A stretch of 35,478 nucleotides of DNA from Acidobacteriota bacterium (GTDB lineage Bacteria > Acidobacteriota > UBA6911 > RPQK01 > JAPXNP01). The translations under genes were made by a program, and so were the position numbers. Positions 4,625 through 9,793 of this stretch are shown here, one piece after another. How positions within the stretch are numbered: position 1 is the stretch's first letter; each line of letters begins with the position of its first letter. The stretch covers positions 1 to 35,478 of the forward strand of contig JAUVSF010000002.1 of the NCBI GenBank assembly GCA_030597245.1. Direction: 5' to 3'. The notes under the pieces were generated by a model that made no database searches, was not told the origin of the DNA, and was given only the letters and a program-made list of their open reading frames with translations.

Positions 4625-7207
4625 CTATGGTTCTCTGTGCTTTGGTGGTTTGAATGGTGCAGACAAGGCCCCTCGACGAAGGAACAGGGCGAAAACGCAG
4701 GCGAGGGCAAAGGCAAGGGAGAAGACGAAGGGGGCTAGCAAACTCTTCAGCGTGTTCTCCTGATACTTTTGCAGCTTTTTCCCGGGCCAGCCGACGTAGC
4801 AGATGCCGGCCCAGAAATATGGGTGCGACCCGGAGACTGTCTGGCCATTGCGTGGAAGCCGTCGCTTAACGAAACTGTTCCGAGCCAGGTACAGTGCCTC
4901 ATCCATCGGATGGCCCGAGAGGGAGTAACGATAGAAGTCGACGAAGATCTCAGCCGAAAGTTCATCCATTCCCCACCTGCTTGCTATCAAGGCTTGCGCT
5001 CCCTGAGCAAGGAAGAGCTCGGTTAACCCCAACCAGTAGGGAGAACCGGAATTATAGGCGTTTGCTGACTCGCACACTGCCAACGAAAGAAGTTGGCACT
5101 CAAATCCCTTCTTTACGAAGGCCATAAGATTGGTCCTCCTCGAGCCGTTCTGGAAGGCGGACGCCGGCCAGAATTCTGGATGCAGAGAAAAGTGGGTCGA
5201 GACATGTATCCACTGACCAGTAAGCTTTCCGGGTATGTCGAGGTTCTCGACTACTCGGAGACTGGGAGCGTATTGACGAAGGACTCTTCGCTCCATCTGC
5301 GCCCCTTGACGGATCGAAAACCCAGAAGGCAGCAGGAGTAGAGGCGCAGAGTCTACAGGTTTGGTTTCTTTGAATCGTTTGTCCGGATCGGGCAGGTAAC
5401 TGAGGATGCGCTTTTCACCCCAGCGGAGCCCGTCCGGGCAACGGAGTAACTCGAAGGGAATGATCTGGAGCTCTTTGTGAGGGATGAGAAGTATACGGCG
5501 GGTTGTGAGCAAGCGGTTCACTGGAGCAATGATTTCGGTGTAGAGACGGTCTGTTGGTGGAATCAGGGCGCTTGGGGACAGCGTAGATTGGTGGCCGTAG
5601 AAATACTCACAGATTCGCTGGGTGAGTGCTGCGGTATCTTCAGAGATTCGAAAAGAAATGTACTGAGTTCCCGTCGTAGATTCGATCCACGCATGGATCA
5701 GCCTTCCGTCGGGCCACATCTCGAGGATTGTAAAGCCGTCTTCGGCCGGGCCCGGTGTGTAATTGCTCAGGGCTTCCGGCCTCTGCGTCCGGGGTTGATT
5801 CGCTGCCCCGAGCTGTACCAATTGACTTAATTCGTCCTCTGCAGAGTCAATAGGTCCGCTGGAGCTGAGAACGTGTGTAGCGTTGACCCGTCTGCGGTAG
5901 CTGAGTTCCTGAATCTCTTTGCGGGCATATTCTTGTTCCCCCAGCTGGATCAGGCAACGGATCCATCCATCAAAGAGAGGTGAGACGGCTTGCCAGTATG
6001 GAAGAATTGATCCGTAATGCGCAGTGGAATCATCTTGCTTGAGGCCGCTTTGATAAGTCTCGGCTGCGTCCCGGTGCTGCCCTGCTTGCTCCATTGCCTT
6101 GCCCAAGAGGAAGTAAATTTCTCGGGAATAATAGGCCAGGTTGGCCTCCCGGCATCGTTCGAGTATTCGTCGGAGGCGGGTCATGTATTCTCGTAGATCC
6201 AGCTTCTCTCTCAGAAGTTTGGCGCGCAGCAAATCGCGCTCGATCCGGATTGATGCCTGAGTCACATCAACCCTATTCAGGATCTCGGGATCTCCAAGGA
6301 TCTCGGCCTGAGCCAGGTGGAACTCGTCGGGGGAAACGGCGGAGTGGATCGAGCATTGCTTTAGATGTTTGGCTGCTCTTAAGGAATCTCCTTTTCGATG
6401 CAGAAAGAGGGCGAAGTTTCGGTGGACGTGGAATCTCTGTTCGGAGAAGGCTGAAGGTCCCAGGTTCTGTAGGGCTCGGTGGTAACATTGTTCAGCCCGT
6501 TCGGTCATGCCGAGTTCTTCATACAGGGTGGCGAGATTGTTCCAGGCGTTGGTGATCCCCTCGGCGAAGTTGATTTGGTGCCATCGCTTCACCGCCTCCA
6601 AAAACGAAAGAATGCTGTTTTGAAGGTCGTCTAGAAACCATAGAGAGTAACCACGACTTTCATAAAGGAGGCCTGTGAGGTACGGCATTTTGGTTGTGTC
6701 GGTCCGCTCGAGTGCCTGGTTGATCCACTGGAGGCTAATGGAAAAGCTTTCCTCTTCTGCGTAGACTTCCCCGATCTGATAGGTACAGAAATGTGCTTCG
6801 GTTTCGGCGCCGTTGTTGAGAAATGCATCCCTCGCTTTCTTAAGAAGGGTGCGAGCGGTACGAAAGTCCCTACGTTCCCAATGTTCAATCGCTTTCTCGC
6901 GTACCCGCAAAGCGTTTCTCTGGCTGGTGGATTGGTGCCTGAGTCCGTCAAAGGAATGATCGCCTGTGATTTCCGCCAGATCATCGATGATCCTGGTGAC
7001 GTCCTGGCCCTGAGAAACCAGATCTCGAAGTCGCTTATGGGCAGCAGGCGGCGAAGAAACGTAGATCCGGGGCAGATCTCCGTGAGCCGACGTGGCCAGG
7101 GGCGAAGCTGCCAGAAAGGCAGGGAAGATCAACGAGAGGGCTAGACTCCCCATTCCGCAGCGCCACGGTTCGGCAGACACTTGTTTCGATGGACCATCCA
7201 GAGTCAT
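4625..7207 (-). CDS. Exported TPR-CHAT domain protein (caspase-like), C-terminal transmembrane segment
   Basis: N-terminal signal-like hydrophobic segment, TPR repeats, C-terminal CHAT region with HVSTHF and LSLAVCESANAY (His/Cys dyad candidates) and GAQALIASRWGMDELSAEIF; hydrophobic LLAPFVFSLAFALACVFALFL near C-terminus; ATGA overlap with upstream gene. Confidence 0.88.
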   Translation of the reverse strand: MTLDGPSKQVSAEPWRCGMGSLALSLIFPAFLAASPLATSAHGDLPRIYVSSPPAAHKRLRDLVSQGQDVTRIIDDLAEITGDHSFDGLRHQSTSQRNALRVREKAIEHWERRDFRTARTLLKKARDAFLNNGAETEAHFCTYQIGEVYAEEESFSISLQWINQALERTDTTKMPYLTGLLYESRGYSLWFLDDLQNSILSFLEAVKRWHQINFAEGITNAWNNLATLYEELGMTERAEQCYHRALQNLGPSAFSEQRFHVHRNFALFLHRKGDSLRAAKHLKQCSIHSAVSPDEFHLAQAEILGDPEILNRVDVTQASIRIERDLLRAKLLREKLDLREYMTRLRRILERCREANLAYYSREIYFLLGKAMEQAGQHRDAAETYQSGLKQDDSTAHYGSILPYWQAVSPLFDGWIRCLIQLGEQEYARKEIQELSYRRRVNATHVLSSSGPIDSAEDELSQLVQLGAANQPRTQRPEALSNYTPGPAEDGFTILEMWPDGRLIHAWIESTTGTQYISFRISEDTAALTQRICEYFYGHQSTLSPSALIPPTDRLYTEIIAPVNRLLTTRRILLIPHKELQIIPFELLRCPDGLRWGEKRILSYLPDPDKRFKETKPVDSAPLLLLPSGFSIRQGAQMERRVLRQYAPSLRVVENLDIPGKLTGQWIHVSTHFSLHPEFWPASAFQNGSRRTNLMAFVKKGFECQLLSLAVCESANAYNSGSPYWLGLTELFLAQGAQALIASRWGMDELSAEIFVDFYRYSLSGHPMDEALYLARNSFVKRRLPRNGQTVSGSHPYFWAGICYVGWPGKKLQKYQENTLKSLLAPFVFSLAFALACVFALFLRRGALSAPFKPPKHREP

Positions 7208-7902
7208 GGTTTGAGGACGCGCAATAATCCAGTACTTTCAACGGAAAATTCTTCTCCCCCCTCTTGCAGCGCTTCGAGCAACTTGATTGCTGAAGCTCTT
7301 TCGCCGTCTCTGAGTAGCAGATTGGCCATGTACCACTGTGAGGGGGACTTCCACCTAGGGTTCCTGGCTGCCTCCCGAAGGCGTGCCAACGCTTGGCTGG
7401 TGTTTCCTAGCAGATAGTGAGTCACACCCAGATAGAACGTTAGCTCCGGATCTTCGTCTCTAGCAACAAGGTTCTTGAGAATCGAGTTCGCTTTCAGGTA
7501 GTTTCCGGTGACATAGGCCTCGAATGCCGTTTCACGAAGTTTGTCGTTACTGGAATCCGTTCCGTCGGAACGCAACTCGAGTGGAAAATAGGGGTACGGC
7601 TCTGCAGCAGCGAAGCGCTCTCCCTCAACCAGCGGGGCGAAGTAGTAAGTAAGCGAAACCAGGCTAAAGATGAGTACAGCTGCAGCCGCCAGATACGTCC
7701 GAGGTCTAGGTTTCTTGGACTGATTCTCTATCTGGAACCGGGTTTCAAGGATGGCCATTACACGAATTCGTTCACGACAAATCTGGCATCCTTCCAGATG
7801 GCTGAGGACACCTTGTGTTTCGGGAGGTTCAAGTTCACCTCTCAAGAACTCAGCGAGCTTCAAATCTTCGCACATCATTGGGTTTTTCCTTTGTTTGTCC
7901 AA
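7204..7902 (-). CDS. Anti-sigma-factor-like zf-HC2 membrane protein with TPR-like C-terminal domain
   Basis: CEDLKLAEFLRGELEPPETQGVLSHLEGCQIC (HxxxCxxC zinc-binding motif), single TM TYLAAAAVLIFSLVSLTYYFAPLV, helical-repeat C-term; start may be the internal MMCEDL. Confidence 0.85.
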   Translation of the reverse strand: MDKQRKNPMMCEDLKLAEFLRGELEPPETQGVLSHLEGCQICRERIRVMAILETRFQIENQSKKPRPRTYLAAAAVLIFSLVSLTYYFAPLVEGERFAAAEPYPYFPLELRSDGTDSSNDKLRETAFEAYVTGNYLKANSILKNLVARDEDPELTFYLGVTHYLLGNTSQALARLREAARNPRWKSPSQWYMANLLLRDGERASAIKLLEALQEGGEEFSVESTGLLRVLKP

Positions 7903-8443
7903 ATCCTGAGACTCCTCGTTGCCGCAGGTATACTCGAATCAGGTCGATTCCCTGGAGCATGCGGCTGCGAAGAGTGGAGTAGGGAACACCCTGTTCCTGG
8001 CAGAACTCCTTCAGTTTCAGAGTGGATTCCCTTCGGAAGAACACCTCGACTGCTTCCCGTTGCTTCGGCTGTAGAGAACGCAATGCCATCTCGACCTCGT
8101 TAACCAGGTGGTTGTGCGTTTCTGCTTCCTCGTTTGTGAGTAGCAGGCTTAAGGGATCAGCCCCGATCTCAGCATATCTCTGGGTCTGGCGTTCACCATT
8201 TCGAGTATCGAATCTGGAATTTTGACGTTGCAGCCTTCGGTAAGTGTCGATGGAGGTGTTCAGGACTGCGCGGCGCAGGTAGTTGAAAGCTTCCTGCTGG
8301 TTGGCAAATCTCTTTCGGGTCCTCAGGACTCGCAAGAAGGCTTCCTGAAGAACATCCTCGACGCTGCTCGGATCGGATATGACTGCTCTGGCCATCGCAC
8401 GAAAGGCGCGTTTTTTCTCTTCCCACACATTTATGAGGGTCAA
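7850..8443 (-). CDS. ECF-type RNA polymerase sigma factor
   Basis: SSVEDVLQEAFLRVLRTRKRF (region 2) and LRSLQPKQREAVEVFFRRESTLKLKEFCQEQGVPYSTLRSRMLQGI (region 4 HTH). Confidence 0.92.
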   Translation of the reverse strand: MTLINVWEEKKRAFRAMARAVISDPSSVEDVLQEAFLRVLRTRKRFANQQEAFNYLRRAVLNTSIDTYRRLQRQNSRFDTRNGERQTQRYAEIGADPLSLLLTNEEAETHNHLVNEVEMALRSLQPKQREAVEVFFRRESTLKLKEFCQEQGVPYSTLRSRMLQGIDLIRVYLRQRGVSGFGQTKEKPNDVRRFEAR

Positions 8444-8510
8444 AGTAATGCTTATTCGCAGGATGGAAGGTCAGAGGCGTTAATAAAGAAGGTAGGAAAC
8501 CAACACGGAT

Positions 8511-8539
8511 AGCTTAGAAGGGGGTACGAACGTTGTCAA
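8511..8539 (-). promoter_or_regulatory. Candidate sigma-70-type promoter upstream of the ECF sigma operon
   Basis: On minus strand: TTGACA (8539-8534), 17-nt spacer, TAAGCT (8516-8511); about 60 nt upstream of the sigma start codon. Confidence 0.5.
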
Positions 8540-8820
8540 GGGGGCGAATTGCATTTCTGCGGCAAAGGGATTCGTTTTCGGTTCTGCTTTCACAGATTCG
8601 GAGATATATTCCCTACAGGCGATTTCGAATACTGTTGAACCTTCAGTTGGCTGGAGACAGATGGTTCGTTCGTCGGTACCTTCGGCCTGATTTCGAGATC
8701 ATCTGGGTTCAGGAGATGGAAAACTGGATCGACATCGCTTTCGATGCTCTCGAAGAGGGACGGAACATGATGCCGACTTTAAAGCGAATCGTTCACCTGT
8801 ACGGGCATCTTTTCAGATAA
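8533..8820 (+). CDS. Possible small hypothetical protein
   Basis: 95-aa ORF with plausible composition, weak TTG start overlapping the divergent promoter; no family recognised. Confidence 0.35.
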   Translation: MSRGRIAFLRQRDSFSVLLSQIRRYIPYRRFRILLNLQLAGDRWFVRRYLRPDFEIIWVQEMENWIDIAFDALEEGRNMMPTLKRIVHLYGHLFR

Positions 8821-9119: not shown

Positions 9120-9704
9120 CTACTTCCAGGAAACTGTGAGACCGCTGAGAAACCGTACACCATAGCTGTTACTTGAGCCCAGGTTATGAGACTTCACTTC
9201 GTTGATCCAGTTCAGGTGTGGAATCAGCTTCGTACGAATCCCTCCCCCGACCGTCCACACCCCATTTCGAGTGCTCTCTTTCCCCTGTTCCTCAAATCCT
9301 GGATAGCCATTCGGGTTGATGACCTGTCGGTTGTCCCAATGGGACCCTCCTCCGCCTTCCACAAATAAGCTGACGCGTTTGCGCCGAAGGAAATGAATCT
9401 GGAGGGTCACATCAACATATTGACGGTTACGGTCTTCCTCGCCTAGAAGGAAGGAATCTCTGGAGAAGGTGAAATCGTCACGGGGAAGGTAGGCCCACTC
9501 GCAGGAGACTGTCAGAAACTCAGTCGGCCACACATTGAGCCAAACTCCAAATTCAGGTCCAGTCTCCGTCCCCAGAACCGTCTCGTCGCCGATCACAGCC
9601 AATCCGATATGACCTCCGCCCTCCAGGTCGATGCCGTGAACCGAACCTCCTAGAGCCAGGAACAGACTTGCTGTTGCGAGTAGAAGCACTCGTGTCGAAT
9701 TCAT
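9120..9704 (-). CDS. Outer-membrane beta-barrel-like protein
   Basis: Signal peptide MNSTRVLLLATASLFLALGGSVHG, alternating beta-strand pattern, C-terminal LSGLTVSWK. Confidence 0.65.
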   Translation of the reverse strand: MNSTRVLLLATASLFLALGGSVHGIDLEGGGHIGLAVIGDETVLGTETGPEFGVWLNVWPTEFLTVSCEWAYLPRDDFTFSRDSFLLGEEDRNRQYVDVTLQIHFLRRKRVSLFVEGGGGSHWDNRQVINPNGYPGFEEQGKESTRNGVWTVGGGIRTKLIPHLNWINEVKSHNLGSSNSYGVRFLSGLTVSWK

Positions 9705-9793
9705 CAGCGAGAAGTCTACCACGGGGCGTTATCCGGATTGGATCTCATCCCAAATTGCTTTGTGTCTGCGCTGCGTACGATAATTGTGTCTCA

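Follow-up and report, generated by a model that had tools for sequence, protein, structure and literature searches.

A sigma factor, anti-sigma factor and CHAT protein operon in Acidobacteriota as a candidate membrane signaling system with a caspase-like protease

This analysis concerns an operon on the minus strand of a 35,478-nucleotide stretch of DNA (contig JAUVSF010000002.1 of the Acidobacteriota assembly GCA_030597245.1; hereafter the window) that encodes an extracytoplasmic function (ECF) sigma factor, a predicted transmembrane anti-sigma factor and a predicted exported protein with tetratricopeptide repeats (TPRs) and a CHAT protease domain. The open reading frame (ORF) listing gave three overlapping minus-strand ORFs within 4625-8443 in the order sigma factor (7850-8443, 197 amino acids), anti-sigma factor (7204-7902, 232 amino acids when counted from a TTG codon at 7902) and TPR-CHAT protein (4625-7207, 860 amino acids, with signal peptide, TPR solenoid, CHAT protease domain and C-terminal transmembrane (TM) segment). 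This layout, including the ATGA overlap between the anti-sigma and CHAT genes at 7204-7207, which was read directly from the letters, is the one described in an earlier note on this DNA. The ATG codon at 7878 is the more likely start of the anti-sigma gene, because an AGGA lies 5' of it and homologs begin there; with this start the gene still overlaps the sigma gene. The three genes form a real operon, neighbored by recG, rsmD, coaD and an M23 peptidase gene.

The sigma protein has regions sigma2 and sigma4 only, which places it among the ECF sigma factors (Pfam Sigma70_r2, E 4e-9, and a weak match to r4_2, E 0.023; NCBIfam TIGR02937 sigma70-ECF, 55.1 bits, above the cut-off of 42.9), and 29 other genomes have an ortholog at the corresponding site. 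A sigma70-type promoter, TTGACA-N17-TAAGCT (8511-8539, minus strand), lies 5' of its gene, and 3' of the -10 element stands the leader motif TTGGTTTCC (GGTTTCC element; 8495-8503, minus strand). The promoter is kept, and the leader motif found at the same position, in loci L093, L034 and L036 as well as in L241, L242 and L249, where the sigma gene is an orphan; both are thus kept with or without the anti-sigma and CHAT genes. The promoter is constitutive-looking, and constitutive transcription of the sigma gene would make post-translational control via the anti-sigma factor necessary.

In the anti-sigma protein Pfam recognized a zf-HC2 domain (E 3.6e-5; 24.2 bits, above the cut-off of 22.2) and TPRs. 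The C...HxxxCxxC motif of a zinc-binding anti-sigma (ZAS) domain is located N-terminal to the TM helix, and its residues C11, H35, C39 and C42 are invariant among five orthologs. The single TM helix (residues 71-89; 7636-7692, minus strand; hydropathy 1.99) is preceded by a K/R-rich stretch, and an N-in/C-out orientation was predicted, with the ZAS domain in the cytoplasm and the TPR domain outside, in agreement with the earlier description of an N-terminal HxxxCxxC motif, one TM helix and an outer helical-repeat domain. The juxtamembrane segment YPYFPLELRS (residues 103-112; 7567-7596, minus strand), in which Y103, P107 and R111 are invariant in the five orthologs, may be a structural cap or the stretch that is cleaved. 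The form YPYFPLxxRS was rejected as a cut site specific to CHAT, since the motif is family-wide and occurs in relatives without CHAT too.

The third protein matched CHAT (PF12770, E 2.4e-17) and TPRs in Pfam. Since single-sequence AlphaFold modeling of the whole protein reached a pLDDT of only 44, it was replaced by modeling of the CHAT region with an alignment of 43 CHAT sequences, which also served as the profile for searching PDB sequences. The first PDB match of the profile was Csx29 (E 3.8e-12), and, counted along the alignment, H672 (the second His of HVSTHF; codon 5192-5194, minus strand) fell exactly on Csx29 H615 and C712 (in AVCESA; codon 5072-5074, minus strand) exactly on Csx29 C658. 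Both motifs had been singled out in the earlier note, with coordinates a few bases off; they are encoded at 5206-5189 and 5080-5063. The His is conserved in all 43 CHAT sequences and the Cys in all 42 that extend to it. The AlphaFold2 model reached a pLDDT of 84.5 and a pTM of 0.85. H672 and C712 follow consecutive core strands, as is usual in clan CD. A Foldseek search with the model ranked fifteen Csx29/TPR-CHAT structures first (8eey_B, E 1.2e-14) and separases next (5fby, E 6.9e-10), with caspases as weak matches. PF12770, the Csx29 alignment and Foldseek hence agree on a clan CD fold with a His-Cys dyad, its residues placed by alignment, and the structure prediction that had been proposed as a check yielded a Csx29/separase-like model, with His and Cys at the catalytic positions as judged by alignment.

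Both ends of the CHAT protein are hydrophobic. The core of the putative signal peptide spans approximately residues 17-41 (7085-7159, minus strand; assigned by hydropathy, with AxA-like sites in orthologs), and a C-terminal TM segment (residues 823-841; 4685-4741, minus strand; hydropathy 2.51), alike in orthologs, is followed by an RR tail. A hydrophobic stretch is present at the C-terminus of every one of the eight syntenic orthologs, with a basic tail behind it in nearly all, and each of the seven whose N-terminus can be seen starts like a signal peptide; the C-terminal stretches of L034 and L040 are weaker and fell under the hydropathy cut-off used. The CHAT domain is predicted to lie outside the inner membrane and the tail inside, because a signal peptide is combined with a C-terminal TM segment and basic tail (positive-inside rule). 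The signal-like N-terminus, TPRs and C-terminal TM segment noted earlier were therefore seen again, both ends recurring in orthologs, and the cytoplasmic location that would have spoken against the earlier proposal was not what the predicted topology indicated.

Nor is the neighborhood confined to the source genome. In genomes G000, G002, G018 and G020 rsmD and coaD flank the operon, which is antisense to them; in G001, G005, G015 and G016 the contigs are separate or short and show it from one side or from both. A contig scan with the CHAT protein recovered one close relative only, and among the orthologs CHAT identity drops to about 21%, with layout, catalytic residues and topology retained. 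Of 30 genomes of the class that bear the sigma gene at the rsmD-coaD site, eight have both anti-sigma and CHAT genes, 22 have neither (in 14 a single contig holds both rsmD and coaD; the others were viewed from one side) and none has only one of the two. The sigma tree, which is weakly resolved and does not distinguish gain from loss, requires five or more switches between the states. The states differ even between two species of one genus: in G016 (L036) a TPR gene in convergent orientation and a kinase gene come after the sigma, anti-sigma and CHAT genes, whereas in G009 (L249) the same TPR and kinase genes directly follow the sigma gene. If CHAT frees sigma from the anti-sigma factor, loss of CHAT only would lock sigma off and retention of CHAT only would be useless, and the pair would therefore be kept or lost together. 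The all-or-none pattern, with sigma persisting alone, backs CHAT acting through the anti-sigma factor as support, not proof, and in this part the earlier idea of such an action gains support.

The sites without the pair were expected to be empty, which was ruled out by the sigma genes found there: in most genomes of the class an orphan ECF sigma gene lies antisense between rsmD and coaD with no adjacent anti-sigma gene (e.g., L241:3939-4493, L242:1057-1599, L243:1248-1814 and L249:2783-3373). In G017 the orphan sigma gene is preceded by genes for a cyclic nucleotide-binding GGDEF protein and an HD-domain response regulator (L241:1807-3768), an apparent cyclic di-GMP gene pair that shares the site.

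Across the phylum, relatives of the anti-sigma profile were found in 36 of 396 genomes. Sigma, anti-sigma and CHAT genes lie within a few kb, in the same operon or divergent, in about half of 40 further loci of this kind, and many of the CHAT proteins there carry an N-terminal signal-like segment. CHAT proteases occur in 35 of 60 sampled Acidobacteriota genomes, with up to at least 32 per genome. Of the 43 CHAT genes sampled, 19 lie at most 3 kb from an ECF sigma gene, 14 of them also near a zf-TM gene; from a density of 140 sigma genes in 23.4 Mb (about 6 per Mb), the expectation is approximately 0.05 per CHAT or 2 of 43 (binomial 2e-13); the rate of 19 in 43 is approximate, since the 43 were hand-picked from stronger matches, at most about two per genome. 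In L044, L046 and L049 an ECF sigma gene lies directly 5' of a CHAT gene or overlaps it with no anti-sigma gene between, a layout like that of ECF54. Two more CHAT genes in G000 (C551:6626-7531 and C483:6805-7746; L047 and L048) have no adjoining anti-sigma gene in the DNA read.

We give an even chance to the reading that a membrane-anchored, extracytoplasmic CHAT protease inactivates the anti-sigma factor by cleavage and so releases sigma. Under this model sigma would be expressed from its sigma70-type promoter and kept inactive in the cytoplasm by the ZAS domain of the anti-sigma factor, which would span the inner membrane and display its TPR domain outside. The CHAT protein would be exported via its signal peptide and anchored via its C-terminal TM segment, so that its TPR solenoid and His-Cys protease of caspase/separase fold would come to lie beside the outer part of the anti-sigma factor. 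CHAT would be activated by a signal in the periplasm or envelope, which may bind to the TPRs of the CHAT protein or be linked to a barrel-like protein encoded upstream (see below). The protease would then cut the anti-sigma factor within or near its juxtamembrane linker, and general proteases, both of the site-2 (M50) type and in the cytoplasm, would complete the release of sigma. M50 site-2 protease homologs are present in the genome. We infer the topology (from sequence), the binding, the cleavage, the order of steps, the signal and the regulon of this model.

The idea that CHAT is linked to the anti-sigma factor, which the data partly support, has precedents that were overlooked in the earlier note. 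Mutation of Csx29 (H615A/C658A) abolishes its cleavage of Csx30, the inhibitor of an ECF-like CASP-sigma (PMC10028731). Like this Craspase system, the operon co-encodes an ECF-like sigma factor, its inhibitor and a TPR-CHAT protein with the same His-Cys pair and fold, but Csx29 depends on RNA, acting via Cas7-11, for its activation and Csx30 is no membrane anti-sigma factor of the ZAS kind (PMC10028731), whereas the operon has a transmembrane anti-sigma factor and a CHAT protein that is predicted to be exported and membrane-anchored. No Cas7-11 or CRISPR genes were found in the neighborhood read, and a PADLOC defense-system search with the three operon proteins gave no match. ECF54 sigma factors are described as having CHAT, subtilase or carboxypeptidase genes in their context, and proteolytic control is proposed for them, with no anti-sigma factor (PMC8999054, citing Casas-Pastor et al. 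2021); the operon shares the ECF sigma and CHAT genes and differs from ECF54, as described there, in having an anti-sigma factor. The operon resembles RpoE-RseA-DegS-RseP in its membrane anti-sigma factor and in the proposed order of a site-1 cut in the periplasm and a subsequent site-2 cleavage. The site-1 enzyme of that system is a PDZ-serine protease, whereas the operon's candidate is a predicted TPR-bearing Cys protease of clan CD. The cytoplasmic C...HxxxCxxC domain is shared with the ZAS proteins RsrA, ChrR and RsiW, which differ in lacking an outer TPR domain and a paired CHAT gene. By analogy, the operon may work like Csx29-Csx30-CASP-sigma and DegS-RseA signaling together, belonging to neither by the features tested. 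A literature search, mainly of open-access coverage, for CHAT with anti-sigma factors found nothing else relevant, so that novelty is provisional; the combination of exported CHAT and transmembrane anti-sigma factor looks like an undescribed variant of an idea already present in Csx29-Csx30-CASP-sigma and ECF54-CHAT.

Several points weigh against cleavage of the anti-sigma factor by CHAT. To our knowledge the CHAT and separase proteases with known substrates work in the cytoplasm or nucleus, and the topology was assigned by hydropathy and charge only. A looser form of the juxtamembrane motif, YxPxxxR[G/S], also occurs in CHAT-less relatives. CHAT is not universal in the wider family, in which the anti-sigma factors of L095-L100 and L104 have no adjacent CHAT gene (an alternative protease was looked for beside these and none was seen). 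A deletion spanning two adjacent genes gives the same pattern of joint loss, and the states change only about five times on the weakly resolved sigma tree.

The protease could instead be the output of the system, with the sigma/anti-sigma pair sensing alone and sigma driving the CHAT gene, and CHAT hitting another envelope target in remodeling or self-killing. We regard this as unlikely but worth serious attention: genes adjoining ECF sigma genes are often their targets, TPR-bearing anti-sigma factors exist without CHAT, and in L105, L112 and L114-L116 the CHAT gene is divergently transcribed, but at the rsmD-coaD site 22 genomes have sigma without CHAT and the anti-sigma gene never occurs without it, the ATGA overlap suggests co-translation of CHAT and anti-sigma factor, and the promoter of the sigma gene is itself of sigma70 type. 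It is still less probable that the two proteins form a non-proteolytic sensory complex, in which TPR contacts stabilize or shield the anti-sigma factor in the manner of RseB and the protease fold serves only as scaffold or in autoprocessing; TPRs on both proteins and the all-or-none occurrence would suit any obligate complex, but a mere scaffold would not be expected to keep His and Cys invariant down to approximately 20% identity. That CHAT and anti-sigma factor have no functional link, the shared rsmD-coaD site across the class reflecting vertical inheritance and chance deletion, is very improbable given the overlapping reading frames, the sigma/anti-sigma/CHAT neighborhoods at other sites across the phylum and the 19 of 43 sampled CHAT genes near an ECF sigma gene versus about two expected.

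Returning to proteolytic release of sigma, we advance tentatively, at somewhat less than even confidence, the broader proposal that exported, membrane-tethered CHATs of Acidobacteriota are dedicated site-1 proteases of transmembrane ZAS-TPR anti-sigma factors, forming a widespread and previously undescribed signaling class in which a cassette of anti-sigma factor and protease was repeatedly gained or lost at an ancestral orphan ECF sigma gene and to which Csx29-Csx30-CASP-sigma would be a cytoplasmic relative. Bacterial CHAT proteases are abundant and mostly without known substrates, and the locus supplies a concrete substrate hypothesis, a caspase-like protease with a predicted place outside the cytoplasm and, in G016 and G009, a natural plus/minus pair within one genus. 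If the proposal is true, the Csx29-Csx30-CASP-sigma link of type III-E CRISPR would fit into a wider control of ECF sigma factors by CHAT.

Further genes accompany the operon or its relatives. The three-gene set of the earlier note stands but left out a conserved gene 5' of the sigma gene (9120-9722, minus strand) for an exported protein resembling an outer-membrane beta-barrel (OMP_b-brl, E 0.046 only), which we consider an optional partner: it is present in four of eight orthologous operon loci and absent in the other four, shares 42-55% identity with its counterparts in L037 and L034, and was also found in L093. In L117 (4403-7684) and L113 (8282-11524) the sigma and anti-sigma genes are followed by a gene whose product is large, exported and carboxypeptidase-regulatory-like at its N-terminus (by eye it resembles a TonB receptor), with CHAT next in L117. 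Divergent from the sigma gene, the window also holds an ORF of 95 amino acids (8533-8820, plus strand), which has no Pfam match and is kept at 33-85% identity in G001, G002, G015 and G017.

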